The notes below the pieces were generated by a model that was not told the DNA's origin, did not search any database, and worked only from the letters and a program-made list of their open reading frames with translations. Source: Alphaproteobacteria bacterium (GTDB taxonomy: Bacteria; Pseudomonadota; Alphaproteobacteria; Ferrovibrionales; Ferrovibrionaceae). Taken from it: a stretch of 64,000 nucleotides of DNA. The stretch lies in contig CANJGB010000009.1 in NCBI GenBank assembly GCA_947473805.1, positions 36,183 to 100,182 of the forward strand. The letters are read 5' to 3'. Below are positions 6,083-48,838 of the stretch, piece after piece. The first letter of the stretch is position 1; each line of letters starts with the position of its first letter. The position numbers and the translations under genes were made by a program.

Positions 6083-7231
6083 ATGAACAAGGGACCGCTG
6101 GCCGGCGCAAAGATCATCGAACTGGCCGGTATCGGGCCGGGGCCGATGTGCGCCATGACGCTGGCCGATCTCGGCGCCACGGTGCTGCGCATCGATCGGC
6201 CAACCGCCAGCGACCTCGGCATTCCGCGCCCGGTGAAGTTCGATCTGCTGATGCGCAACCGGCGGGTCATCCGTGTCGACCTGAAGAAACCGGAGGGCGT
6301 GGAGTTTGTCCTGAAGCTGGTCGAGGACTCGGACGCGCTGATAGAGGGCTTTCGCCCCGGCGTCACCGAGCGTCTGGGCCTGGGCCCGGATGTGTGTCTG
6401 GCCCGTAATCCGAAGCTGGTCTATGGCCGCATGACCGGCTGGGGCCAGACAGGACCGTATGCGAAGGCGGCCGGTCACGACATGAACTATATCGCGCTGA
6501 CCGGAGCGCTGGCCGCCATCGGGCGCGCCGGACAACCGCCGACGCCGCCATTGAACTTCATCGGCGACTATGTCGGCGCCATGTACCTCGGCCTGGGCAT
6601 GACGGCGGCCATGTGGGAAGCGAAGACATCGGGCAAAGGCCAGGTGGTCGATGCCGCGATGTGCGATACGTCCGCATCGTTCATGACCAATTTTTACGGC
6701 CTGTTCGCGGCGGGCATGTGGTCGTGCGAGCGCGGCACCAACATCCTGGACAGTGGCGCGCCTTTCTTCGACGTCTATGAGTGCAAGGATGGCAAGTGGC
6801 TGTCGGTCGCCCCGATCGAAGCGAAATTCTACGAGCAGTTCCTGAGGATCGCGGGAATCGATCCGGCGTCAATGAAACCGCAGAACGACCGCCAGCACTG
6901 GGCCGGGAACAAGGTGCGGATCGCCGCCGCCCTGAAGCAGAAGACGCGCGACGAATGGGCAGCGCTGTACGACGGCACCGATGCCTGCGTTTCGCCAGTA
7001 CTGGACTTCACCGAGGCGCCGCAGCACCCGCACTTCAAGGCGCGCCAGACCTTTGCTGAAATCGACGGCGTCATGCAGCCCATGCCCTCGCCCCGCTTCA
7101 GCCGCACCCCACCGGGCGTGCCGACGCCCCCCGACAAGGCGGGCAATGACGAGGCGCACCTGGCGCTGGCGCCGTGGAACCTGGACGAAACGGCGACGGC
7201 GGCGCTGAAGAAAAGCGGCGTTCTGGTCTAG
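6083..7231 (+). CDS. alpha-methylacyl-CoA racemase-like CaiB/BaiF family protein
   Basis: A 382-residue family III CoA-transferase fold protein. It carries the racemase hallmark GHDMNYIALTG with H132 and D162 spaced 30 residues apart, the same spacing as the His126/Asp156 pair of the mycobacterial alpha-methylacyl-CoA racemase. This favours epimerising 2-methyl-branched acyl-CoA (as in sterol or isoprenoid side-chain oxidation) over CoA transfer. The family Asp is also seen in VVDAAMCDTS. An 85-bp gap with a candidate promoter and operator separates it from the upstream SDR. Its stop overlaps by 4 bp the stop of the convergent epimerase gene. Confidence 0.88.
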   Translation: MNKGPLAGAKIIELAGIGPGPMCAMTLADLGATVLRIDRPTASDLGIPRPVKFDLLMRNRRVIRVDLKKPEGVEFVLKLVEDSDALIEGFRPGVTERLGLGPDVCLARNPKLVYGRMTGWGQTGPYAKAAGHDMNYIALTGALAAIGRAGQPPTPPLNFIGDYVGAMYLGLGMTAAMWEAKTSGKGQVVDAAMCDTSASFMTNFYGLFAAGMWSCERGTNILDSGAPFFDVYECKDGKWLSVAPIEAKFYEQFLRIAGIDPASMKPQNDRQHWAGNKVRIAAALKQKTRDEWAALYDGTDACVSPVLDFTEAPQHPHFKARQTFAEIDGVMQPMPSPRFSRTPPGVPTPPDKAGNDEAHLALAPWNLDETATAALKKSGVLV

Positions 7232-8221: not shown

Positions 8222-9442
8222 TCAGGCCTTCTTCAGCAGCGGGCAGTTGGTGTCCGCCAGCGGATAGGCCTCGGCGGCCGGGATCGTGTTGATGTGCTCG
8301 AGATAGTCCCACGGCTCCTTCGAGTCTTCCGGCTTCTTGACGCGCATGAAGTGGATGTCGGCGACCAGCCGGCCATCCTCGCGCAGGAACGCATTCTTCG
8401 CGTAGACGTCGTTGACGCGGGTCTTGCGCATCTGCGCGATCACCGCGGCCGGATCGGTGTTGCCGACATCCCGCACGGCGTTCAGGTAATGGCCCACCAC
8501 CGAGTAGGTCGCTGCCTGCACCGCGTTCGGCATCTGGTTGTGGTCCTTGAAGAGGCGCATCGAGAAGGCGCGCGTCTCCGCATTCAGGTTCCAGTACCAG
8601 GAGTCGGCGAAGCCGAAGCCCTGCGCGATCTTGAGGCCCATGCCGTGCACGTCGTTGACGCTGCTCTGGGTCGCGCAGATCTTCTGCGTCAGCTTGAACT
8701 CGTTGATGGTCTTGACCGAATTGACGACGTCGGGGCCGGCATTGTTGAGGACGATGACGTCGGCCTTCGACTGCTGCGCCTGCAGGATGAAGGACGACAT
8801 GTCCTGTACGCCAAACGGATGCTTCACGCTGCCGACGGTCTTGCCACCCAGTTCGTCGATGATCGGGCGCAGCGCCGCTTCGCCGCCGAGGCCGGTAGCG
8901 TTGTCAACGGACAGGAAGAAGAAGGTCTTCGCGCCCTGCTTGATCATCGCGTTGATGCCGGCCTTGCCGATGGCCGAGGAACTGAACAGCCAGTTCATCG
9001 AATTGTTGTTGCAGGCCTCGTTGGTGATGCGCGGCGAACTGCCGTCGGAACCGATCAGCAGCTTGTTCTTTGCCTTCACCACTTCCTGCACCGCGAACAC
9101 ACAGGCGCTGAGCGGCACGTCGGTGATGGCGTCGACACCGTCCTGGTCGAACCACTTCTGCGCGATGCTCGACGCAATGTCGGGCTTGTTCTGGTGGTCG
9201 GCGACGTAAACCTCTACCGGGATGCCCGGGTTCTTCGCCTGGAAGTCGGCGACAGCAAGACGCACGCACTTCTCGGCAACCGGGCCGGAATAGGCGGCGT
9301 ACTGGCTGGAGAAATCGCCCAGATGGGCAACCTTGATCGGCTTGGTGAAGCGGCTCTGCGCCAGGGGCGAACGCGCGATGAAGGGGGCTGCGAGCGCGGC
9401 CGACGCGGTAACAAGCGCAGTTCTGCGAGTGATCTTGACCAT
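8222..9442 (-). CDS. ABC transporter substrate-binding protein, branched-chain amino acid type
   Basis: A 406-residue type-1 periplasmic binding protein. The start at 9442 is set by GGGAGG upstream; the longer open frame is not protein-like. Residues 1-29 form a probable Tat signal (twin Arg at 6-7, then ALVTASAALAAPF and ending ARSPLAQ). The mature part begins IKVAHLGDFSS and contains the usual lobes (VEVYVADHQNKPDIAS, VLNNAGPDVVNSVKTINEF). Homologs bind amino acids, amides or aromatic acids. No permease or ATPase gene is adjacent, so it is an orphan receptor or serves a transporter elsewhere. Divergent LysR gene 9569-10468 is upstream. Confidence 0.88.
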   Translation of the reverse strand: MVKITRRTALVTASAALAAPFIARSPLAQSRFTKPIKVAHLGDFSSQYAAYSGPVAEKCVRLAVADFQAKNPGIPVEVYVADHQNKPDIASSIAQKWFDQDGVDAITDVPLSACVFAVQEVVKAKNKLLIGSDGSSPRITNEACNNNSMNWLFSSSAIGKAGINAMIKQGAKTFFFLSVDNATGLGGEAALRPIIDELGGKTVGSVKHPFGVQDMSSFILQAQQSKADVIVLNNAGPDVVNSVKTINEFKLTQKICATQSSVNDVHGMGLKIAQGFGFADSWYWNLNAETRAFSMRLFKDHNQMPNAVQAATYSVVGHYLNAVRDVGNTDPAAVIAQMRKTRVNDVYAKNAFLREDGRLVADIHFMRVKKPEDSKEPWDYLEHINTIPAAEAYPLADTNCPLLKKA

Positions 9443-9568
9443 ATTTATGTCCTCCCAGGAGCGCCGCATTTGCGGGCGCATCGTTCGTAGCCATATAGCG
9501 GACGGCGTCCGCATATATCCGGACAGGTTATGCCATAGTGGACGGCACCGGCGCAATCGGAGCAACCC

Positions 9569-11538: not shown

Positions 11539-13269
11539 TTACACCCTACGGATCGCCTTGGTGACCGAGTGGGTGCCGCCGATGAAGAACAGGCTGCGGC
11601 CGGCGTCGCCGCCAACCACGATGATGTCGAAGCATTCCGGGCCGTTATAGACCGGCACTTCAGTCTCGGGCCGGTCCAGCAGCCAGGTCATCTTCGGATG
11701 CAGCGTGGTGAACAGGTCCTGCGGCTTGTTCAGCATCAGCTTGCCGAACGGCATCTTGCTCTGCTTGTAGAGCTTCATCTTGATGTCATCGGTCGACCAG
11801 CCGGCATCGGCGAACACCTGGGCGTGTTCCGGGCACATCATGATGAGGTTCTGGAACAGGCCGTTGAACGGGTAGCCGGAATCGCGCGGGCCGCCCTTCT
11901 TGATCAGCCACATGCCCGAGTTCGGGCTGGCGCAGGCGTTCGACGTGACGGTGGCGAAATTCTCGATCAGCTTTTCGGCATCGGAATTGTGGAAGTCGAA
12001 GAACTCGGTCTGGCCGTAGGGCACGTTGATCGTGACCGTCGATTCCGAAGCATCAAAGCCCTGCTCGACGCGATAGGGCTTCCACGGGTTGCGCGCCTCG
12101 TTCTCGGCGACGCAGGCGGAGAACTTGCCGGCGCTGCCGATGGTGTCCATGTCGCTGACGCCCGGATAGGAATGGCCGACATTCATCATGATCAGACGCA
12201 GCGCACGGCCGATGCTGACATTTACCTGCGAGATGGAGCCCGGCCCCAGCGCGCAGACGCCGCTGTTCATGCCGATTTCCTTGGTGATCGCTCCCGATAC
12301 CAGGACCAGCGGGAATTGCGGACCGGTGGACATGGCCCAGGTGCGCAGGCCGATGGAGGCATCGAGCGCGCAATCCATCATCGCCATGATGACCGGCATC
12401 GCCGCCGGCTTGCAGCCGGCCATAACGGCGTTGGCGGCGATCTTGCTGACCGTTCCGATGCCGAAGCCCGGCGCGAACTTACCGACGACCTCGTCACCCG
12501 GCCGGCCCGAGGCCTTGATCATGGCCGCGACCTTTTCCGGCGTCGGCGGGACCAGCGGCATGCCGTCGCTCCAGCCGCGCTTGATGAAGTCGGTCGTCAT
12601 GTTGTCCCAGGCGTCGAGCTGGTCGAGGCCATCATAGTCCAGTTCCGGCGCCTGGCCGATGACCACGTGCTCGAACTGCGGCAGGGCGGCCATGGCCTCG
12701 CGGTCCTTGGTCAGGCCTTCGATCACCTTCTCGAACGAATCATCGACCAGCTTCTGCAGCTCGGGCTCGGTGCGATTGGTGAACGTCTGCGGCACGATGA
12801 CCGGGCAGGCCTCGGGCACGCCGAAGGTCTTGCAGCTGAAATGGGCGTCCTCGTCGAATACCTCGGCGGTGTAGCCGACAGTGGCGATGCCACGGCGCTC
12901 CAGTTCGCACATGTCGCGGATCAGCCACGAGGTACACGACCCGCAATCCGCAGTCGTCGCGATGCAGACGTCGATCTCCTGCTTCATCATGTCAAGCTGG
13001 GCGGGCGACGCGTAGCGCGTGATGCCGCCGTTCTCGCCGACGATGAAGTTGAAGGTCACGTTCTTGAACCGCTTGGCCAACTTGTCCTGGACCATGCGCA
13101 GCGCGATGTCGCCGTTATTCTTACCGTTCCAGTACAGGCCGATGCGCTTGCCATCCAGCGTCTTTGGCCGCTTGGCGGCGGGATGCCTCTCGGCATCCGC
13201 CTGGTCGGCCGCGCCGTCGGCGACGGGGTTGATAATCTTGAGCGTGGTTTGCACCATTGCCTTGTCCAT
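11539..13269 (-). CDS. fused protein: CGSC-type UGSC-family domain plus partner domain
   Basis: A 576-residue two-domain protein. Residues about 38-180 match the UGSC-family (seleno)protein: GKRIGLYWNGKNN, then C109-G-S-C112 in ATTADCGSCTSW and a following helix RDMCELERRGI. Residues about 185-576 are homologous to the separate protein at 47741-48838 (shared GW(S/T)DG(M/L)P(L/I)VPPTP, NAVMAG, RALRL). So this gene fuses, in Cys form, the two proteins encoded separately, in Sec form, at 47165-48838. Function is unknown; the CxxC-like motif suggests thiol redox or covalent chemistry. It is last in an operon after an alpha/beta hydrolase and an LLM flavin oxidoreductase, hinting at a catabolic role. 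Start supported by GGGAGG 7 bp upstream. Confidence 0.85.
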   Translation of the reverse strand: MDKAMVQTTLKIINPVADGAADQADAERHPAAKRPKTLDGKRIGLYWNGKNNGDIALRMVQDKLAKRFKNVTFNFIVGENGGITRYASPAQLDMMKQEIDVCIATTADCGSCTSWLIRDMCELERRGIATVGYTAEVFDEDAHFSCKTFGVPEACPVIVPQTFTNRTEPELQKLVDDSFEKVIEGLTKDREAMAALPQFEHVVIGQAPELDYDGLDQLDAWDNMTTDFIKRGWSDGMPLVPPTPEKVAAMIKASGRPGDEVVGKFAPGFGIGTVSKIAANAVMAGCKPAAMPVIMAMMDCALDASIGLRTWAMSTGPQFPLVLVSGAITKEIGMNSGVCALGPGSISQVNVSIGRALRLIMMNVGHSYPGVSDMDTIGSAGKFSACVAENEARNPWKPYRVEQGFDASESTVTINVPYGQTEFFDFHNSDAEKLIENFATVTSNACASPNSGMWLIKKGGPRDSGYPFNGLFQNLIMMCPEHAQVFADAGWSTDDIKMKLYKQSKMPFGKLMLNKPQDLFTTLHPKMTWLLDRPETEVPVYNGPECFDIIVVGGDAGRSLFFIGGTHSVTKAIRRV

Positions 13270-13323: not shown

Positions 13324-14505
13324 CTATTCCGCCGCCGCACTCAGGTGCAGTTCCTTTAGGCGCGGCACTACCTCGCTTCCGAACAGGTACAGGCTGTCGC
13401 GGTTTTCCTCGTCTTCCAGCATGCCGCCCATCTGGACGATCATGTTGCCGACACCGCCCATGGCGGTCGAGAAGCGCATGATCTGTTCGGCGACCTGGTC
13501 CGGTGTGCCGCAGAACAGCATCCCGGCCTGGACGAACTCGTCGATCGTCGGCGGGTTCGACATCTTGCGGCCGTCCGGCAGCGTCTTGTTGTAGAAAAAG
13601 CTGATCGCGCCCTGGTTTGGCAGCAGCCGGGCATTGTCTGCCACGCTCATATAGCCCGGCGGATTGAGCTTGGCCGGCGGCGTACGCTCGGTCGCATGGG
13701 CATAGGAAGCGACCCGGGCTCCGCGCTCCCGCGCCGTCTTCTCGTCCTTGGCGACGGCGACCATGCCGAGATAGGCGATGCGCTCTGGCGGCGCCGCCCG
13801 GCCGTGCGTCTGGGCAAAGGTCTCACGATAGGCGTCGAACACGCCCTTCGAGCCGTAGCCCGTGGTGAATGTGGCCATGGTATAGCCGCGCCGGGCGATT
13901 TCGCGCGCATTGTTGCCGCTGAACGTCGGCATCCAGATCGGCGGATGCGGCTGCTGGAAGCAGCGCGGGATGACGTTGATGTTGCGGTACTGGTAGTTCT
14001 CGCTTTCCCAGCTTACGGGCCCGTCGTGGCTGGTAAAGGCCTTCAGCAACAGGTCGTGCGCCTCCCAGAACCGGTCCATGTTGCGGACCGGGTTCTGGTT
14101 GGAAATCGGCAATTCGTAACCAGCGCCCTTGACCAGGCCGAGTTCCAGCCGGCCGCCCGACATGGTGTCGACATAGGCAGCCTCTTCCGCGACGCGGTAG
14201 GGGTCGGGCCGGTTGAACAGCGGCACGCCCAGCGCCAGGAGGCGCGCATTCTTGGTCACGCGCGCCAGAATGCTCAGGGTGAGCATGCACGACACGGACA
14301 TACAGGTGTACGAGGCGTGGTGCTCGTTCACCATGATGTTCATGCCGAGCTGGTCGGCCAGCGTCCATTCGTCGATGCAACGGTTCAGCAGGCGGTGGGC
14401 GACCGCGGGTTCGGCCAGCTTGCTGCCGGGATCGGTGCGCAGCGGACCCTGGATTTCATCCCAGACCGGGTAGTAGCCCTGCTCGGAAAAATAATAGAAC
14501 TTCAT
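13324..14505 (-). CDS. LLM class flavin-dependent oxidoreductase
   Basis: A 393-residue luciferase-like monooxygenase (bacterial luciferase superfamily TIM barrel). MKFYYFSEQGYYP starts the barrel; MVNEHH is the characteristic NEHH active-site segment; the later GRLELGLVKG and MPTFSGN segments are typical flavin-binding parts. These enzymes use reduced FMN or F420 supplied in trans. The ATG at 14505 overlaps the hydrolase stop in ATGA, implying translational coupling. Next downstream on the same strand is the fused CGSC protein. Confidence 0.9.
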   Translation of the reverse strand: MKFYYFSEQGYYPVWDEIQGPLRTDPGSKLAEPAVAHRLLNRCIDEWTLADQLGMNIMVNEHHASYTCMSVSCMLTLSILARVTKNARLLALGVPLFNRPDPYRVAEEAAYVDTMSGGRLELGLVKGAGYELPISNQNPVRNMDRFWEAHDLLLKAFTSHDGPVSWESENYQYRNINVIPRCFQQPHPPIWMPTFSGNNAREIARRGYTMATFTTGYGSKGVFDAYRETFAQTHGRAAPPERIAYLGMVAVAKDEKTARERGARVASYAHATERTPPAKLNPPGYMSVADNARLLPNQGAISFFYNKTLPDGRKMSNPPTIDEFVQAGMLFCGTPDQVAEQIMRFSTAMGGVGNMIVQMGGMLEDEENRDSLYLFGSEVVPRLKELHLSAAAE

Positions 14506-15302
14506 GCCCGGATTCCTTTCCGGCTGGGCGTCGCGGCGCCCGCGAAGCGCACGACGTGATCGGCGAACGTCGCCACCTGTTCGACATGAGGAAGGTGGCC
14601 GCAGGACGGAATGACCTCGAGCGACGCGGACGGCAACGTACCGGCCAAGGCGCGGCCGTAGTCGAGATTGACCACGCGGTCGTTGGCGCCCCACAGGACG
14701 AGGGTTGGCAGATCGACGCGGTGCAGCCGCTGGCGCAGCTTGGGGTCGTAGAGGGTCGGTGACCAGCTGAACAGGGTAAAGGCCTCGCGGTTGCGGGCAA
14801 TGCGGGCCAGTTGGGGTTCCGGAACCTTCGTATAGTCGACAGCGAAACGCGCGACGTCATGGAACAGCAGCGGCGGAATCTCGGCCGGCGTCAGGGCAAA
14901 CAGGTCGGCAATATCGCGCGTGTCGCGGCTGCCGAACTTCACGCCGACGGCATCAGCCAGGACGAGGCGCGACAGGCGCGCGGTCGACTTGATCGCCATT
15001 TCCATCGCCAGCCAGCCGCCGAACGAGGCGCCGCACAGCACGACATCCGTCAGATCCAGCTCGTCGAGCAGGTCGAGATAGAAATAGGCCAGGTCGTCGA
15101 TGGTCGAGAAATTCGCCGGCAGGTCGGTTCCACCGAAACCGGGGTGCGACGGGGCAATCACGTCGAACGACTTTGACAGCAGGTCGATGGCCGGCTGGGC
15201 CGCCTCGACGCCATCGCCGGAATGGAGGAACAGCAGCGCCGGGCCGCTGCCCTTGCGCACCATTTCAACCGACAGGCCGGCTATCTGTATTTTGTCTGCC
15301 AT
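14502..15302 (-). CDS. alpha/beta hydrolase
   Basis: A 266-residue alpha/beta hydrolase. The nucleophile elbow is GASFGG (Ser near residue 96), the oxyanion segment is LFLHSGDG, an acid is expected after LVLWGANDRVV, and the His lies in CGHLPHVE. The ATG at 15302 is chosen because AGAGGGAG precedes it; an upstream in-frame GTG at 15320 is less likely. It heads the minus-strand operon hydrolase, LLM oxidoreductase, CGSC fusion. It diverges from the dienelactone hydrolase-like gene at 15474. Substrate unknown. Confidence 0.87.
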   Translation of the reverse strand: MADKIQIAGLSVEMVRKGSGPALLFLHSGDGVEAAQPAIDLLSKSFDVIAPSHPGFGGTDLPANFSTIDDLAYFYLDLLDELDLTDVVLCGASFGGWLAMEMAIKSTARLSRLVLADAVGVKFGSRDTRDIADLFALTPAEIPPLLFHDVARFAVDYTKVPEPQLARIARNREAFTLFSWSPTLYDPKLRQRLHRVDLPTLVLWGANDRVVNLDYGRALAGTLPSASLEVIPSCGHLPHVEQVATFADHVVRFAGAATPSRKGIRA

Positions 15303-39388: not shown

Positions 39389-39421
39389 CGTAGGGCTGGC
39401 CTCTCTCCTATTGTGGCGGCC

Positions 39422-40828
39422 ATGGAGAAACGCCCCAATCTGGCCGGCCTGCCATCGGTCGACCGCATCCTCAACTGGCCCGGGATCGCCGCGCTGGCTG
39501 ACCGCCATGGGCGTGCGCCCGTATTGATGGCGGTGCGCGACCTGCTGGCCGAGGTGCGCGCGGCGGCGCAGCACGGTGGCCCCCTTCCCGCCCTCGATGA
39601 AGCCACGACCGTCGCGACCATCGGTACCCGTCTGAATGCCCAGGCCGCCTCGCGCCTGAAGCGGGTGTTCAACCTCACCGGCACGGTGCTGCACACCAAT
39701 CTCGGCCGCGCGCTGATGCCCGACGAGGCAGTGGCCGCCGTCGTCGCCGCCATGCGCGGTGCAGTCGCGCTGGAATACGACCTGGACGATGGCGGGCGCG
39801 GCGACCGCGACGATGTGGTGACGCCGCTGCTGGCCGAACTCACCGGCTGCGCCGGTGCGACCATCGTGAACAACAATGCCGCCGCCGTGCTGCTGGCGCT
39901 CAACACCCTGGCGCAGCAGCACGAGGTGATCGTCTCGCGCGGCGAGTTGATCGAGATCGGCGGCGCGTTCCGCCTGCCCGACATCATGGCGCGCGCCGGC
40001 TGCCGCCTGGTCGAGGTTGGCACCACGAACCGCACTCATCTGAAGGACTATGCCGAGGCTATCGGGCCAAAGACGGCGCTCATCCTGAAGGTGCACACCA
40101 GCAACTATGCGGTTCAGGGCTTCACCGCCAGCGTGCCTGAAGCCGAACTCGGCGCACTGGCACGCGAACGCGGCGTGCCGCTGATGGTCGACCTCGGCAG
40201 TGGCGCACTGGCCGACATGGCGCGCTGGGGCCTGCCGCGCGAGCCGCGCCCGCAGGACGCCATCGCCGCCGGGGCCGATGTGGTGACCTTCAGCGGCGAC
40301 AAGCTGCTGGGCGGGCCGCAGGCGGGGCTGATCGTCGGCCGCGCCGACCTGATCGCGCAGATCAAGAAGAACCCGCTGAAGCGCGCGCTGCGCGTCGGCA
40401 AGATGACGCTGGCGGCGCTGGAAGCGGTGCTGCAACTGTACCGCGACCCCGACCGCCTGGCCGAGCGGTTGACCACGCTGCGCCTGCTGACGCGCACGCG
40501 CGCCGATATCCGCGCGCAGGCAGAGCGCGTGTTGCCGGTCCTGCAGGTAGCACTCGGCGCTCATGGCGATGTGACCGTCGAGGACTGCGCCAGCCAGATC
40601 GGCAGTGGCGCCCTGCCCGTCGATCTGCTGCCCAGCGCCGGTATCGGCATCCGGCCACCAAAGCGCGGCGGCGGCCGTACCTTGCGCGCCATCGAGGCGG
40701 CATTCCGCGAAGCTACAGTGCCGGTGATCGGCCATATCAAGGAGGGCGCGTTCCACCTGGACCTGCGCTGCCTCGACGACGAAGCCGCCTTCGTCGCGCA
40801 ACTGGACGGGATCAAGCCCGCGCCATGA
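39422..40828 (+). CDS. selA: L-seryl-tRNA(Sec) selenium transferase
   Basis: A 468-residue PLP enzyme that converts Ser-tRNA(Sec) to Sec-tRNA(Sec) with selenophosphate. The PLP Lys is K294 in [12 protein letters not shown] (equivalent to Lys295 of E. coli SelA). [13 protein letters not shown] and [14 protein letters not shown] are SelA hallmarks. The ATG at 39422 is chosen; a GTG at 39413 is also possible, and neither has a strong ribosome site. The stop overlaps selB in ATGA. Starts the selenocysteine block that includes selB, selC and selD. Confidence 0.95.
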
Positions 40829-42711
40829 TCGTCGGCACGGCCGGCCATGTGGATCACGGCAAGACCGCGCTGGTCCGCGCGCTGACAGGAGTCGATACCG
40901 ATCGCCTGAAGGAAGAGAAGGCGCGCGGCATTTCCATCGACCTGGGCTTCGCGTACCTGCCGCTCGAAAGCGGCGAAGTGCTGGGCTTTGTCGATGTACC
41001 GGGGCACGAGCGCTTCATCCACAACATGCTGGCAGGTGCGACCGGCGTGGACTTCGTCCTGCTGGTGGTTGCCGCCGATGACGGGCCGATGCCGCAGACG
41101 CGCGAGCACCTGCAGATCCTGAACCTGCTGGGCCTCAGCCGCGGCGCGGTGGCGCTGACCAAGAGCGACCTGGTCGATGCGGCGCGCCTCCTGGCGGCGC
41201 AGGACGAGATCCGTGCGCTGCTGGCCGGCACCGCGCTGGCGGATGCGCCGATCCTGCCGGTATCGGCCACGACCGGCGCCGGCGTGGATGACCTGCGTAC
41301 TCACCTTGCCAGTGCCGCGAACGAGATGGTGCCGCGATCCGCGGCGGGCCACTTCCGCCTCGCCATCGATCGCTGCTTCACCCTCAGCGGCGCCGGCACC
41401 GTGGTGACGGGCACCGCCTTTGCCGGCACGGCGAAGGTTGGCGACACCATGACCCTGTCGCCCGGCGGCATCGGGGTACGCATCCGCTCGATCCATGCGC
41501 AGAACCGCGCGGTCGAGACCTGCCGGACGGGCCAGCGTTGCGCGCTGAATCTCGCAGGGCTGGACAAGGACAAGGTGCTGCGCGGCGCGTGGATCGTCGA
41601 CGGGGCGCTGGACGCGCCGACCGCACGGTTCGACGCGGTGCTGCACCTGCTGCCGGCCGAGGCGCGGAACCTGCGCGACCAGGCACAGGTGCATGTGCAT
41701 CTCGGCGCGACGCATGCACTGGGCCGCGTCGCGGTGCTGGATGCCAAGGCCGTGGAGCCCGGCGGCACCGTGCTGGCGCAGGTCGTGCTGGACCGCCCCA
41801 TCGGCGCCCTGGCCGGCGACCGCTTCATCATTCGCGACGCGTCGGCGACGCGCACCATTGGCGGCGGCAGGGTGCTGGACCCGTTCGCGCCCGCACGCAA
41901 CCGGCGCAAGCCGGAGCGGCTGGACTGGCTGCGGGCGCGGCGCGAAGGGCCCGGCGTGGCGCTGGCGCGCGCGGCCGGCCGCGCCACGGGCGTCGATCTC
42001 GACCGGATCGCGATTGCCGAGAACCTGCGCAGCGACGAACTCGATGGGCTGGTCAAGCAGACGAACCTTCATGCCGTGGCCGGCCATGTGTTCACCCCTG
42101 CGCGATGGCGTGCGCTCGGCGAAGGCGCGCTCGCCGTGCTGGCCGCCGCGCACAAGCGCGCGCCCACCGATGCCGGCGTCGACCGCGAGCGGCTGCGCAA
42201 GCTGGCCGCGCCCGCTTTGCCCGTACCCGTGTTCGACGCGCTGCTGGCCGATCTGCGCAGCAGCGGCGCCGTCGCCGTCACCGGCAAGTGGCTGCACCTG
42301 CCCGCGTTCCGGCCCGTGATCGATCCGGCGGAGCAGCGCGAACTGGAGCGCGTACTGGCCCTGTTGCGCGAGACGCCACTGGCGCCGCCCGGCCTGCACG
42401 ACACCGCGAAGCGCCTGCGCCTGCCGGAGCAGAAGGTGCGCCGCCTGCTGGCCAAGCTGGTGCGGCAGGGCGAGGTTGTTGCCGCCGGCGACGATCTGCA
42501 CTTCACCACGGGCGCCATCCGCACCTTCGCCGCCGCGGTGAAGACCGACATCGAGGCGGCGGGCGAAACGACAGTGGCCCGCCTGCGCGACCGCCTGAAC
42601 GTCGGCCGCCGCCGCGTGGCCCCGCTGCTCGACTACCTCGACCGCGCCGGCTACACGCGCCGGGTCGGCGACGCTCATGTCATGCGTGACGCGAAGGCGC
42701 TGGAGAAGTAG
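40825..42711 (+). CDS. selB: selenocysteine-specific elongation factor
   Basis: A 628-residue SelB. GTPase motifs G7-HVDHGKT (G1), DVPGHE near residue 57 (G3) and TKSDL (G4); beta-barrel domains follow; the C-terminal ~200 residues hold winged helices that bind the SECIS hairpin ([49 protein letters not shown]). It delivers Sec-tRNA to UGA codons followed by a SECIS such as 47487-47507. Coupled to selA. Its 3' end overlaps the convergent PaiB-type gene by 32 bp. Confidence 0.95.
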
Positions 42712-43376: not shown

Positions 43377-43471
43377 GGAAGGAAATCGTCCCTGGTGGGG
43401 CGGCCGGTCTTCAAAACCGGTTGGGGCCGTTCACGGTCCCGGGTGGGTTCGACTCCCATTTCCTTCCGCCA
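43377..43471 (+). tRNA. selC: tRNA-Sec (anticodon TCA)
   Basis: A 95-nt tRNA with the features of bacterial tRNA(Sec): an 8-bp acceptor stem (GGAAGGAA with TTCCTTCC), anticodon stem CCGGT/ACCGG with loop CTTCAAA and anticodon TCA at 43411-43413, a long variable arm, GGTTCGACTCC T-arm, discriminator G and encoded CCA at 43469-43471. The sequence is very like E. coli selC. It reads UGA and completes the Sec pathway with the flanking selA, selB and selD. Confidence 0.97.
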
Positions 43472-43484
43472 ATCCTCTCTGCGC

Positions 43485-43565
43485 CCCTCACCCTTCGACA
43501 CGCTCAGGATGAGGGTCTACTGAAATGTCTAAACAGCCTCATGCTGAGCCTGTCGAAGCGCGAGG
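43485..43565. repeat. extragenic inverted repeat invading the selD 3' end
   Basis: Two about 29-nt arms (43486-43514 and 43537-43565) are inverted copies of one another with a 22-nt spacer. Cores CTTCGACA and CTCAG.ATGAGG match the palindromic repeat common in alphaproteobacterial genomes. The right arm lies within the last codons of selD (stop at 43529), so the repeat supplies its C-terminus. Confidence 0.75.
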
Positions 43566-45727
43566 CGCACGCGCGGCATGCCCGCCTCCGCCCGACCGAT
43601 GATGGCCGCATGCACGATGCCGGCGGCATGTAGCGCGGCAACACAGGATTCGGCGCGGTCCGCCGGCACGCCGGCCAGCAAGCCGCCGGCGGTTTGGGGG
43701 TCAAACAGGATGGCCTTCAACGCGTCGGGCAATACACCGGCAACGAAGCCTTCGTTGGCGAGGTTGTCGGGCAGCAGTGTCGAGGCGAAGCCCTGCGCCG
43801 CGAGGTCGGACACGCCGGCATAGAGCGGCACCGCGGCGGCATCCAGTGTCGCGGCCATGCCGGACGCCGACAGCATTTCCGCCAGGTGGCCGATAAGGCC
43901 GAAGCCGCTGACGTCGGTGGCGGCGGTCGCACCATGGTCCAGCAGCGCCTGCATCGCGGCGCGGTTGGAGGTGCACATTTCGGTCAGCGCGGCCTCGATC
44001 CAGCGCGCGCGGGCGCGGGCACGCATGTCGGCGGCGAACAGGATGCCGGTGCCGAGCGGACGGGTGAGGATCAGCGCGTCGCCTGCCTGCAACCCGCTTT
44101 TGCGCAAGGCTCGGTCAACCTCGACGAACCCGGTAACGCTGAAACCGCAGGCGAGCTGCGCTCCCTCGCCCGAATGGCCGCCGGCCAGTTGCACCCCTTC
44201 GGTATCGAAACATGATTTCGCGCCGGCGAGGACCTGGAACAAGGTCTCCGCCGTGCCGGACGCGCGGCCTGGCGGTACGGTGACGATGGCCAGCGCGTGG
44301 TGCGGCGTGCCGCCCATGGCGAAGACGTCGTTCAGCGCATGGTTGGCCGCGACCTGGCCGAACACAAACGGGTCGCCGATGAAGTCGCGGAAAAAATCGA
44401 CAGTCTGGACGAGTGAACGGCGGTCACTCGGCACCGGTATGATCGCGGCGTCTTCACGTGGTGCAGCGCCGCTCAGCCGTTCCAGTGCGTTGGCCAGCGG
44501 CGCAGGCCCAACCTTGGCAGCGCAGCCGCCGCAGCGCATGTCATCGTCCACCGGCATCGGCGGCATCGGCATGGGCTGGATGTCGCGGTACATGGCCATG
44601 AAGCGCTGGTCGATGACATCCTTCAGACGCCACAGCCATGCGCTTTCGAGCTTCAATGCGCCGCGCGAGGCGATGGCGTAGCGCGTGCCGGTGGAGATCA
44701 AGGCGAGATGGCTGGCCTGCGGGCGATACGGCGACAAATCCTCGCCGCGCGCGCGGGCCAGCAGGTTGCGCGCCAAAGGCGGCCCCTGGCGCACGGCAAA
44801 CACGCCGGCCTTTTCGCGCGGGCTGCCGGTCATGGATGCGCAGTCACCGACGGCGAAGACATCGGCATCGTTCGTGCTCTGCAAGGTCGGCGTCACGGCG
44901 ATAAAGCCGCCGGTGTCGAGGTCCAGGCCCGTGGTGCGGAACCAGGCCGGGGGCGCGGCACCGGTGACGAGCAAGGCGGCATCGCAGGGCACAGCGGTGC
45001 CGTCGTCCAGTGTCAGGCGGTCGGCATGGACAGATGCGACACGCCTGTCATGCACCGTGACGCCCGCATCACCCAGGACGCGGCCAAAGGCGGCGCGCAC
45101 CGCCCGATTGTGGCCGGCCAGCAGGCTGCCGCCAGTTACCAGCGTAAAGGCGAAAGCCTCAGGATCGAGGCCGGCAATGCGGGCCTCGTCCCGCAGGCGG
45201 GTGCGGACCGATAGCAGCAGTTCCACGCCACCGGCGCCGCCGCCGATCATGGCGATGCGGCGCGGTCCATCCGGTGCCGCGCAGCGCGCGCGCAATGCAT
45301 CGAACCGCGCCAGGAACGAACCGATGGGCTTCACCGCCAGGGCATGTTCCGCCGCGCCCGGAATGGCATCCGCCGGCGGCACGATGCCGGTATCGAGCGA
45401 CACAACGTCATAGGCGATTGGCGCGCGGCCCTGCAGCAGCACGCGCTTCGCCGCGCGGTCGAGGCCCACGGCCTCCGCATGGATCAGCCGCGTATTGGTG
45501 GCGCGGGCCAGTTGCTGCAGGTCGATATGAATGTCGTCGCGGTCGTACAGGCCGGCGACATGGCCGGGCAGCATGCCGGAATAGGGCGTTTCGAGATCGC
45601 GGGCGATAAGGGTCAGGCGCACGGCGGGATCGGGCTGCATGCCGAAGGCGCGCATGACATGGACATGGGCATGACCACCGCCGACCAGCACCACGTCCAC
45701 CACCTTGCGCTCCGTTGCGTGCACCAC
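43529..45727 (-). CDS. selD: bifunctional: NADH dehydrogenase-like flavoprotein fused to selenide, water dikinase
   Basis: A 732-residue fusion. Residues about 1-375 form a pyridine nucleotide-disulfide-type flavoprotein (VVLVGGGHAHVHVMRAFG, IAMIGGGAGGVELLLSV, DVFAVGDCASM). Residues about 390-732 are SelD, which makes selenophosphate from selenide and ATP; the active-site Cys pair is C399-x2-C402 in RCGGCAAKVG (Cys, where other SelD have Sec). The flavoprotein may reduce selenium to selenide for SelD. The start is GTG 45727 with GAGG upstream. The promoter at 45929-45957 and a 200-nt leader with 20-bp repeats lie upstream. Confidence 0.93.
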   Translation of the reverse strand: MVHATERKVVDVVLVGGGHAHVHVMRAFGMQPDPAVRLTLIARDLETPYSGMLPGHVAGLYDRDDIHIDLQQLARATNTRLIHAEAVGLDRAAKRVLLQGRAPIAYDVVSLDTGIVPPADAIPGAAEHALAVKPIGSFLARFDALRARCAAPDGPRRIAMIGGGAGGVELLLSVRTRLRDEARIAGLDPEAFAFTLVTGGSLLAGHNRAVRAAFGRVLGDAGVTVHDRRVASVHADRLTLDDGTAVPCDAALLVTGAAPPAWFRTTGLDLDTGGFIAVTPTLQSTNDADVFAVGDCASMTGSPREKAGVFAVRQGPPLARNLLARARGEDLSPYRPQASHLALISTGTRYAIASRGALKLESAWLWRLKDVIDQRFMAMYRDIQPMPMPPMPVDDDMRCGGCAAKVGPAPLANALERLSGAAPREDAAIIPVPSDRRSLVQTVDFFRDFIGDPFVFGQVAANHALNDVFAMGGTPHHALAIVTVPPGRASGTAETLFQVLAGAKSCFDTEGVQLAGGHSGEGAQLACGFSVTGFVEVDRALRKSGLQAGDALILTRPLGTGILFAADMRARARARWIEAALTEMCTSNRAAMQALLDHGATAATDVSGFGLIGHLAEMLSASGMAATLDAAAVPLYAGVSDLAAQGFASTLLPDNLANEGFVAGVLPDALKAILFDPQTAGGLLAGVPADRAESCVAALHAAGIVHAAIIGRAEAGMPRVRLALRQAQHEAV

Positions 45728-46065: not shown

Positions 46066-47028
46066 TCACTCCGGCTTCCAGCCGAGGGAGTCGGCGATTT
46101 CGCCGTAGCGCTTGGCGTCGTTCGCGACTTTCTGGCTGAACTGCTCCGGCGTGGTGCCGGGGAAGGTGATCGCGCCTTCGGCCTCGCGCTTTTTCGCCTC
46201 GGGACTCCTGGCGTAGTTCGCGACCTCGGCGGCGATGCGGTCGATGATCGGCTTCGGCGTGCCGCCGGGCGCAAACAAACCGGTCCAGGTGCCGGTGGGA
46301 ATGTTCAGGCCCTTGTCGGTCAGCGTCGGCAAAGCGGGATAGAGGACCGACTTCGCGGTGCCGTTGATCATCAGCGGGCGCAGGCCACCGGCATCGATCT
46401 GGCCCTTGGCGAAGCTGATCGGCGCCTGAATCAGATGCACCTCGTTGGCGATGGCGGCCTGAGTGAATTGCGGCGTGCCGGGATAGGGCACCTCGACCAG
46501 GTTGATGCCGAGGTCACGCTTCAGCGCCTCCATCGCCAGCACGATGGAATTGCGGCCGGCGGACGCGTAGTTGAGCTTGCCGGGATTGGCCTTCGCATAG
46601 GCGATGAACTCGCCCATCGTCTTGAAGTCGGCCTTGCCTGACGTGAGGTAGAGCCCGACGAAATCGGAAAACTGCGAGATCGGCGCGAGATCCTTGAGCG
46701 GATCGAAGCTGAGATCCTTGATCAGGACCTTGAACGTGGTCACGCCGGGGCCGCTGCAGAACAGGGTGTAGCCATCGGGCGCGGCGCGCGCGACGGCGGC
46801 GGCCGCGAGACTGCCGCCAGCGCCAGGGCGCGGCTCGACGACGAAGGGCTGCTTCAGCGCCTCCTCGAGATACTTCGCGACCGCGCGGCATTCGAGATCA
46901 GTCGCGCTGCCGGCACCAATGGACGTCAGGACGGTGACCGGCTTGGTCGGATAGATCTGCGCCATGGCGGCGCCCGACAGGACACCGAGCGCGGCCAGCG
47001 CCGCAGCGAGCGTGCGAAATGTGTTCAT
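46066..47028 (-). CDS. tripartite tricarboxylate transporter (Bug family) substrate-binding protein
   Basis: A 320-residue Bug/TctC receptor with a Sec signal peptide (hydrophobic LAAALAALGVLSGAAMA, residues about 7-23). IYPTKPVTVLTSIGAGSATD is the usual mature start, and GGGLRP-like IDAGGLRPLMI, LNYASAGRN, and APGGTPKPIIDRIAAEV are typical. It binds a carboxylated solute in the periplasm. No TctA/TctB membrane partner is adjacent. It diverges from the selenoprotein gene at 47165 across a 136-bp shared upstream region, so both may respond to one signal. Confidence 0.92.
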   Translation of the reverse strand: MNTFRTLAAALAALGVLSGAAMAQIYPTKPVTVLTSIGAGSATDLECRAVAKYLEEALKQPFVVEPRPGAGGSLAAAAVARAAPDGYTLFCSGPGVTTFKVLIKDLSFDPLKDLAPISQFSDFVGLYLTSGKADFKTMGEFIAYAKANPGKLNYASAGRNSIVLAMEALKRDLGINLVEVPYPGTPQFTQAAIANEVHLIQAPISFAKGQIDAGGLRPLMINGTAKSVLYPALPTLTDKGLNIPTGTWTGLFAPGGTPKPIIDRIAAEVANYARSPEAKKREAEGAITFPGTTPEQFSQKVANDAKRYGEIADSLGWKPE

Positions 47029-47164: not shown

Positions 47165-47731
47165 ATGCCAATGATCACCCTAGACCCGACATTCGAGGCC
47201 TTCACCGCGAAGGAGCGCCTGGCGAACAGCCGCGCCTCGGCCCCCGCGCCGAAGGGCCTGAACGGCCTGCGCGTCGGCCTGCTGGCGAACGGCAAGCACA
47301 ACAGCCGCGAGCTGCTGGACGCGCTGTTCGCGGAGCTGGGCCAGGTTGATGGCATTACGCTTTCGGGCGAGCCGATCAAGGTCTGCAAGGGCAGCGTGTC
47401 GGTGCCGCCGGAGCCGGAGGATTTCAGAAGGCTCGTGGCAGAGACCGACTTCGTCCTGGTGGCGATCGGCGATTGAGGCTCGTGCACGTCGCGTAGTGTA
47501 CGCGACGCCATCGAACTGGAATGGGCCGGGCGACCGGCCGTGGCCATCATTACCGATGCCCTATTGGGCGCGGCCGAAATGATGAAGCGGGTGTCGCGGA
47601 TGCCGGACTATCCCTATGTGCTTACCGAATTTCCGGTGGGGAACCTGAACGCCGAGGAACTGCGCGCGCGGGCCAAGGGGCTGATCCCCGAAGTGGTGCG
47701 CCTGCTGACGCAGAACCGGCCGCAGGACTGA
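47165..47731 (+). CDS. UGSC-family selenoprotein (in-frame TGA read as selenocysteine)
   Basis: A 188-residue protein when the TGA at 47474-47476 is read as Sec (U104), giving U-G-S-C107 in LVAIGDUGSCTSRSVRD. The paralog at 11539-13269 aligns there with ATTADCGSCTSWLIRD, i.e. Cys in place of Sec. The frame is open from the ATG to the TGA and again to 47729, with no frameshift. GGAGGA (47155-47160) precedes the ATG at 47165; an ATG at 47171 is possible. A SECIS-like hairpin follows the TGA. Function unknown; the U-x-x-C motif suggests selenol redox or covalent chemistry. The partner gene begins 9 bp downstream. Ordinary gene callers would give two fragments (to 47476, and from 47540). Confidence 0.93.
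47474..47476 (+). other. selenocysteine UGA codon
   Basis: In-frame TGA followed by GGC TCG TGC (Gly-Ser-Cys). It aligns with Cys109 of the fused paralog and is the only stop in an otherwise intact conserved frame. Confidence 0.93.
47487..47507 (+). promoter_or_regulatory. bacterial SECIS element
   Basis: A perfect 9-bp stem, CGTCGCGTA (47487-47495) with TACGCGACG (47499-47507), caps in loop GTG. The stem starts 10 nt after the UGA and the loop G is 19 nt after it, inside the range seen for bacterial SECIS. The hairpin lies within coding sequence, as expected for bacteria, and would be bound by SelB. Confidence 0.82.
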
Positions 47732-47740
47732 GGAGCGGAG

Positions 47741-48838
47741 ATGGCCGACAAGCCGGACACCCAGCCAGAGATCGCGGTCGACCCGTACGATTGCGGGCCG
47801 GAGGCGTGCAGCATCACCGCCAGCCAGCTGACCGCGGCGCGGGTCGAATCCGCCGACCCGTTCGAGGCGATGGAAACCTATTTCGAGCGCGGCTGGACCG
47901 ACGGCCTGCCCATCGTGCCGCCGACGCCGGCACGCGTTGCCGACATGCTAGATGCCGCCAACATCGCACCGCACGAAGTGCTGGCGCGGGTGGAGACCCG
48001 CGAGAACGTGGAAGTCACAGCCGAGAAGCTGGCCATCAACGCGGTCATGGCGGGCGCGAAGCCAGAATACATGCCGGTGATCGTGGCGGCGATGCGCGCG
48101 CTGGCCGACCCGATGCACAACCTGCATTCGCACACCGCGACGCTTATGGGCGCGGTGCAGGTGGCGATCATCAACGGCCCGGTGCGGCAACGCCTGAACA
48201 TCAACTCGACCGATGGCGCTTTCGGCCCGGGTTTCCGCGCCAATGCCACGATCGGCCGCGCGCTGCGCCTGACCATCCGCAACGTGCTGCGCTCGGTGCC
48301 GGGCGAGTTCGACCGCGCCGCCTTTTCCCATCCCGGCCGGTTCAGTTGGTGCTTCGGCGAGGACGAGGAGGAATCACCCTGGGCCACGGTTTCCGAGGAC
48401 CAGGGCTTTGCGCGCGGCCAGGACACGGTGACGATGTACGCCACCGGCTGGCAGAGCACCATCGTCGGCGACACGCGCGACGCGAAGGAGCTGGTGCACA
48501 ATATCGGCTGGGGCGCGCGGCAGGCGAACCTGTCGGGCTGGCGCCACATGAACGACCTGGACAAGAGCAACTTCTCCAGCTTCCGCGACGGGCGGAAGTT
48601 CCTGTTCGTGACGGGGCGCGAACATATCCGCGTGCTGCACGGCGCCGGCATGGACAAGCGCGCGGTACAGGAGGAAATCTACCGCTGCTTCACCGCAGCG
48701 CATGCCGACCTGCCGGAAGTGGCGGTGGCGAAACCGGAGAACATCCTGATCGCCTGCGTACGCGGCACGGCCATGTACCAGACGTTCTTTTTCTTCCCGT
48801 TCCACAGCTCGAACCCGATCACGCGCCTGATCGGGTAG
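47741..48838 (+). CDS. uncharacterised partner of the UGSC selenoprotein
   Basis: A 365-residue protein without signal peptide or membrane helices. It is homologous to residues about 185-576 of the fused CGSC protein at 11539-13269: shared RGWTDGLPIVPPTP near residue 50, INAVMAGAKPEYMPV, and IGRALRLTIRNV. I recognise no characterised domain. The gene starts 9 bp after the selenoprotein stop with AGGAGCGGAG upstream, so they form an operon, and the fusion paralog indicates they work as one complex or enzyme. Substrate and reaction are unknown. Confidence 0.85.
   Translation: MADKPDTQPEIAVDPYDCGPEACSITASQLTAARVESADPFEAMETYFERGWTDGLPIVPPTPARVADMLDAANIAPHEVLARVETRENVEVTAEKLAINAVMAGAKPEYMPVIVAAMRALADPMHNLHSHTATLMGAVQVAIINGPVRQRLNINSTDGAFGPGFRANATIGRALRLTIRNVLRSVPGEFDRAAFSHPGRFSWCFGEDEEESPWATVSEDQGFARGQDTVTMYATGWQSTIVGDTRDAKELVHNIGWGARQANLSGWRHMNDLDKSNFSSFRDGRKFLFVTGREHIRVLHGAGMDKRAVQEEIYRCFTAAHADLPEVAVAKPENILIACVRGTAMYQTFFFFPFHSSNPITRLIG

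Follow-up and report, generated by a model that had tools for sequence, protein, structure and literature searches.

A UGSC-family gene with a likely selenocysteine codon, a GrdB/PrdB-type selenocysteine domain and a constant partner: a predicted two-part reductase

The gene at 47165-47731 on the forward strand of the window, i.e. the 64,000-nucleotide stretch of alphaproteobacterial DNA analyzed here, likely encodes selenocysteine (Sec) at an inner UGA and specifies a Sec domain of the type present in GrdB and PrdB; on balance, its product and that of the gene directly downstream are predicted to make up a reductase of two parts, which thioredoxin would recharge. The UGSC-containing selenoprotein family itself has been on record since 2008 with its function unassigned, and it belongs to the most abundant selenoprotein families of aquatic metagenomes, accounting for 8.2% of marine selenoprotein genes (PMC9402790). 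New here are the homology of the Sec domain to GrdB and PrdB, the constant partner, and the presence of trxB/trxA beside some relatives. Through the tie to GrdB and PrdB and the constant partner, an orphan family becomes a two-component enzyme that can be tested and that has a likely electron donor; the partner, a large family so far outside Pfam coverage, is thereby named.

An earlier sequence-only reading had claimed that one frame stays open both before and after the TGA at 47474-47476 and gives U-G-S-C upon read-through, which is borne out by the translation of 47165-47731: the start codon ATG at 47165 is preceded by GGAGG about 8 nt upstream, the single inner TGA falls on codon 104 within the motif environment IGD-U-GSC-TSR, in which U104 and Cys107 delimit the U-G-S-C motif, and the frame runs on to the final stop TGA at 47729-47731, yielding 188 residues. 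The read-through protein matches PF24696 with 160.4 bits (cut-off 25), and since residues 6-183 align with positions 3-172 of the 172 profile positions, both flanks of the TGA form one domain. Judged by its sequence, the gene is a full-length member of the UGSC family (PF24696/NF041046), with which it has the whole domain, the Sec position and the U-G-S-C motif in common, although it reaches only 115.8 bits with NCBIfam NF041046 and thus scores under the cut-off of that model (125); the 188-residue selenoprotein of this family proposed earlier is supported by the PF24696 score and by the intact frame past the TGA. Automatic annotation had been expected to break the gene at this codon, and a protein database indeed carries a 103-residue product stopping at the TGA (P0003; 100% identity over 54% of the query), hence gene calling did truncate it.

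All four genes on which, according to the same reading, Sec insertion at UGA depends along with a SECIS are found within 8 kb of the UGSC gene. These are selA (39413-40828, +; TIGR00474, 585.8 bits, cut-off 267.9), selB (40825-42711, +; TIGR00475, 439 bits, cut-off 242.25), selC encoding tRNA-Sec with the anticodon tca (43377-43467, +; RF01852, 87.7 bits, and ARAGORN), and selD as part of a fusion with an NADH-dehydrogenase-like (Ndh) moiety (43529-45727, -; TIGR00476 selD, 277.9 bits, cut-off 125; TIGR03169, 447.8 bits, cut-off 310). The Ndh-SelD fusion scores 481 with TIGR04369, under the cut-off of 700.

Among 385 genomes of the same class, 38 together contain at least 100 PF24696 matches, a lower bound with at most eight candidates scored per genome; 93 of these 100 hold exactly one in-frame TGA and seven hold none, which is more than expected by chance. 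The motif was read in 46 copies from 43 sources, comprising 40 regions chosen from those genomes, two extra regions of the own genome, and the window. Whether homologs carry Sec or Cys at the TGA column, as the earlier reading had proposed to check, is answered by U or C in 46 of 46 copies (41 TGA, 5 Cys), and in an alignment of 40 UGSC sequences the second motif Cys hardly varies. A divergent family member (L083:2790-3347) features C-G-L-C in place of U-G-S-C. Moreover, of 372 class genomes, 53 have a tRNA-Sec scoring at least 66 bits, the next match having 54.9 bits, and such a tRNA is present in 33 of the 35 genomes bearing a TGA-type UGSC; the two genomes lacking a tRNA-Sec above 66 bits are 77% (G028) and 98% (G380) complete.

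The SECIS anticipated alongside the sel genes has a counterpart directly 3' of the TGA in a SECIS-type hairpin at 47488-47506 (+), GTCGCGTA-GTG-TACGCGAC, whose eight pairs (47488-47495/47499-47506) flank a GTG loop (47496-47498), with AGT at 47495-47497 as loop codon. Over 34 TGA sequences, 90.1% of the cells of the eight stem pairs are paired, compared to a shuffle mean of 86.7% (0 of 500 shuffles as high), while sliding the stem partners out of register reduces pairing to less than 50%. At least seven of the eight pairs are formed in 32 of 42 Sec sequences versus 12 of 61 Cys sequences, and the loop begins with GT in 37 of 42 versus 2 of 61. Within the same 42 Sec sequences, the loop codon specifies Ser 33 times, 32 times as AGT and once as TCG, and is TGT in all five Cys cases, whereas AGT accounts for 31 of 827 Ser codons (3.7%) in the neighboring partner genes and for none of the 15 Ser cases listed among Cys homologs (13 AGC, 2 TCG). 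This bias in the Sec set indicates a constraint at the RNA level. Counting against it, the window hairpin is unremarkable by folding energy as such (z -0.9), and 1466 of 5000 synonymous recodings match or exceed its stability, although no more than 110 of the 5000 retain all eight pairs. Codon conservation, RNA constraint and adjacent machinery strongly support Sec, and the inner UGA likely encodes it. The own genome harbors a second TGA-type UGSC-partner pair (L005:2671-4277, -), in which the RNA following the TGA is devoid of the common hairpin and folds differently.

Directly downstream of the UGSC gene lies the partner gene (47741-48838, +; 365 residues), whose product is a homolog of the C-terminal region in a fused paralog. 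The latter, of which the sequence-only reading had noted the C-G-S-C motif, is present in the window at 11539-13269 (-) as a 576-residue fusion to the partner domain with the Cys codon at 12943-12945; the downstream partner, the two-part nature of this paralog, and the homology to GrdB and PrdB were absent from that reading. Genes for a CoA-transferase III (6083-7228), a periplasmic binding protein (8222-9565) and a luciferase-like monooxygenase (13324-14694) surround the fused paralog.

Searches of Pfam and NCBIfam at E 0.001 gave no match for the partner, and eight of its relatives have no Pfam match at E up to 5; nevertheless, the family is large, with at least 7986 homologs among the 7999 scored candidates listed. 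In 44 of the 46 copies, the partner resides on the UGSC strand, near or fused (43 within 203 nt, one at 933 nt), with 30 upstream and 14 downstream positions; in L060 and in L075, which is at a contig edge, no partner was detected. A second, independent collection comprises 54 Cys-type loci of named genomes, among them Actinomycetota, sphingomonads, haloarchaea and Methanobacteriaceae, and shows the partner on the same strand in 53 cases, with one gene between UGSC and partner in L141 and L143 and no partner found in L146. The partner family is a constant companion of UGSC. In the Methanobacteriaceae (L134, L141, L143, L146), the CGSC gene adjoins a lysyl-tRNA synthetase-like gene, and the partner is situated downstream in the three loci where it was found. 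A fusion of UGSC with a domain termed 'Unknown_1' was reported in 2008 (PMC2398784). The accessible portions of the UGSC literature contain no mention of a constant partner or of a relation to GrdB, and those sources naming both UGSC and GrdB, as far as they are accessible, draw no link between these two families.

Comparison by hhalign of the 40-sequence UGSC alignment with a GrdB alignment (36 of 120 listed proteins) yielded a probability of 95.3%, E 2.4e-8 and a score of 62.4 with the Sec columns superposed, while 200 column-shuffled decoys scored at most 27.95 and a reversed alignment 20.6. When the four motif columns were masked in both profiles, a score of 44.7 (E 1.2e-5) over 150 columns was retained. 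A single PrdB sequence likewise matched the UGSC profile (33.0, E 1.9e-4), with 200 shuffles of PrdB reaching at most 19.9. On the other hand, hmmscan run to E 10 gave no PF07355 (GrdB) match for any of the 40 UGSC sequences, thus the relation is remote. By profile comparison, the UGSC Sec domain is a homolog of PrdB and of the Sec domain at the C-terminus of GrdB, and not of thioredoxin, for which two TrxA sequences gave no match to the UGSC profile (E 0.12 and 0.023).

The likeness to the selenoprotein B subunits of glycine, sarcosine and betaine reductase (GrdB/GrdF/GrdH, PF07355) comprises the homologous Sec domain with aligned Sec columns and trxB/trxA neighbors at some UGSC loci. In contrast, the N-terminal half of GrdB (~215 residues) is absent from UGSC by length, with E 0.076 for UGSC against that half, and the partner is unrelated to GrdE/GrdG. 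Glycine and proline reductases are enzymes of anaerobic bacteria, and PrdA is a pyruvoyl proprotein. The carriers of UGSC, unlike those of GrdB, lie largely outside the anaerobic amino-acid fermenters. PrdB of D-proline reductase resembles UGSC as a small Sec subunit with a UxxC motif that works with a second subunit, but this second subunit, PrdA, is annotated as a proprotein, and no relation between it and the partner of UGSC could be detected. Specifically, profile comparison of the partner with the GrdE-type subunits (GrdE/GrdG) and PrdA gave E 0.39 to 0.78, whereas the control of GrdE-type subunits versus PrdA gave E 3.9e-14 in the same set-up; comparison with the N-terminal half of GrdB revealed no relation either. 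Assignment of the pair as a glycine or proline reductase was rejected on the grounds that the partner is unrelated to the GrdE-type subunits and PrdA, and its chemistry would consequently differ from that of the pyruvoyl subunits. A match to PF09338, sought as a sign of a pyruvoyl proprotein partner, was obtained in 0 of 289 class genomes, in a search in which no positive control matched.

Genes for trxB or trxA are close to the pair in seven of the 54 Cys loci (L095, L098, L104, L113, L115, L123, L142; L128 and L140 doubtful) and in three of six plasmid loci read (L085, L086, L087), these being raw counts. Cys forms are present on plasmids of Variovorax and Roseovarius strains. In a further plasmid locus (L088), trxB is about 9 kb away and adjoins selA, and in the first set of loci a TrxB-like gene occurs in L065, L066 and L078. 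No such gene turned up in the vicinity of the four UGSC copies of the own genome, and most loci lack one. The arrangement beside some relatives resembles the glycine/betaine reductase cluster of Enterococcus gilvus, where trxB and a thioredoxin gene (trxA) precede grdA-grdC-grdD. The commonest neighbors at 103 loci are CoA-transferases of family III (22), SDR proteins (17), acyl-CoA dehydrogenases (16) and AMP-binding ligases (15), followed by ABC ATPases (13), LysR regulators (13), enoyl-CoA hydratases (11) and TrxB-like proteins (9), while the SelA cluster containing the selA of the window is near six of these loci. In the window, a gene for a TctC-type tripartite tricarboxylate receptor (46066-47028, -) diverges from the UGSC gene; receptors of the TctC type are also repeatedly encoded close to other copies of UGSC.

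The analysis establishes the frame, family membership, SECIS-type signal, Sec machinery, homology and pairing. We infer Sec insertion in the own cell, complex formation, the reaction, its substrate and its electron donor, the cycle being predicted by analogy with GrdB and PrdB as follows. UGSC and the partner product would form one complex, constituting a two-part, Sec-dependent, thioredoxin-fed reductase, with small organic acids or CoA compounds of the acyl-CoA type as candidate substrates held by the partner. The selenolate of Sec104 would attack an activated carbon of the bound substrate; subsequently, Cys107 of the U-G-S-C motif would resolve the selenium adduct, whereby the reduced product is released and an Se-S bond remains. 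Thioredoxin and thioredoxin reductase would then reduce this bond and restore the selenol. In the fused paralogs, the two parts form a single chain, with Cys instead of Sec.

The evidence can be set against other readings of the gene. A reading of the TGA as a mutation or a normal stop codon, with only the 103-residue protein being made, agrees with the truncated form in public databases, but is hardly credible in view of the conserved TGA, the loop-codon constraint, the adjacent Sec machinery, and the intact frame and domain past the TGA. For UGSC, a thioredoxin- or peroxiredoxin-type thiol/selenol redox protein was proposed in 2008, the fold being called likely Trx-like (PMC2398784). The UxxC motif and the trx genes adjoining some copies would fit this proposal, which nonetheless appears improbable: an AlphaFold2 model (pLDDT 92.7) displays an alternating alpha/beta domain of five strands, matched in the PDB by generic Rossmann-like folds, the profile matches GrdB clearly but neither thioredoxin, and a general redox protein is ill-suited to an obligate partner and catabolic neighbors.

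A greater, though still low, probability is assigned to a non-redox lyase, hydrolase, dehalogenase or racemase that would act on organic acids or CoA esters with Sec or Cys as its nucleophile. The recurrent CoA-transferases (22 of 103 loci), acyl-CoA dehydrogenases, ligases and enoyl-CoA hydratases as well as the absence of trxB near most loci speak for such chemistry; however, the second motif Cys is nearly invariant, as expected if it resolves a selenium adduct, and both GrdB and PrdB are reductases. The two-part, thioredoxin-recharged reductase remains the preferred reading.

A broader generalization is offered more tentatively, at slightly less than even confidence: UGSC-partner pairs may represent an unrecognized class of Sec-dependent reductases that combine the GrdB/PrdB Sec module with a new, non-pyruvoyl, substrate-holding partner, and that occur with Sec or Cys in bacteria of aerobic lineages, haloarchaea and methanogens, with as many as eight copies in one genome serving different substrates among organic acids or CoA compounds. 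Up to eight UGSC copies per genome were counted, with at most eight candidates scored in each, and the occurrence of several copies with differing neighbors suggests different substrates. In a tree built from 107 UGSC domains, 43 with Sec and 64 with Cys, for which the Sec/Cys column was set to C in every row, the Sec/Cys label changes 11 times, at least five changes being forced by supported branches; this pattern counts in favor of Sec. The Sec row of the window is placed on a long end branch (1.31) and the fused CGSC paralog groups among other Cys rows; hence, the two genes did not arise by recent duplication.
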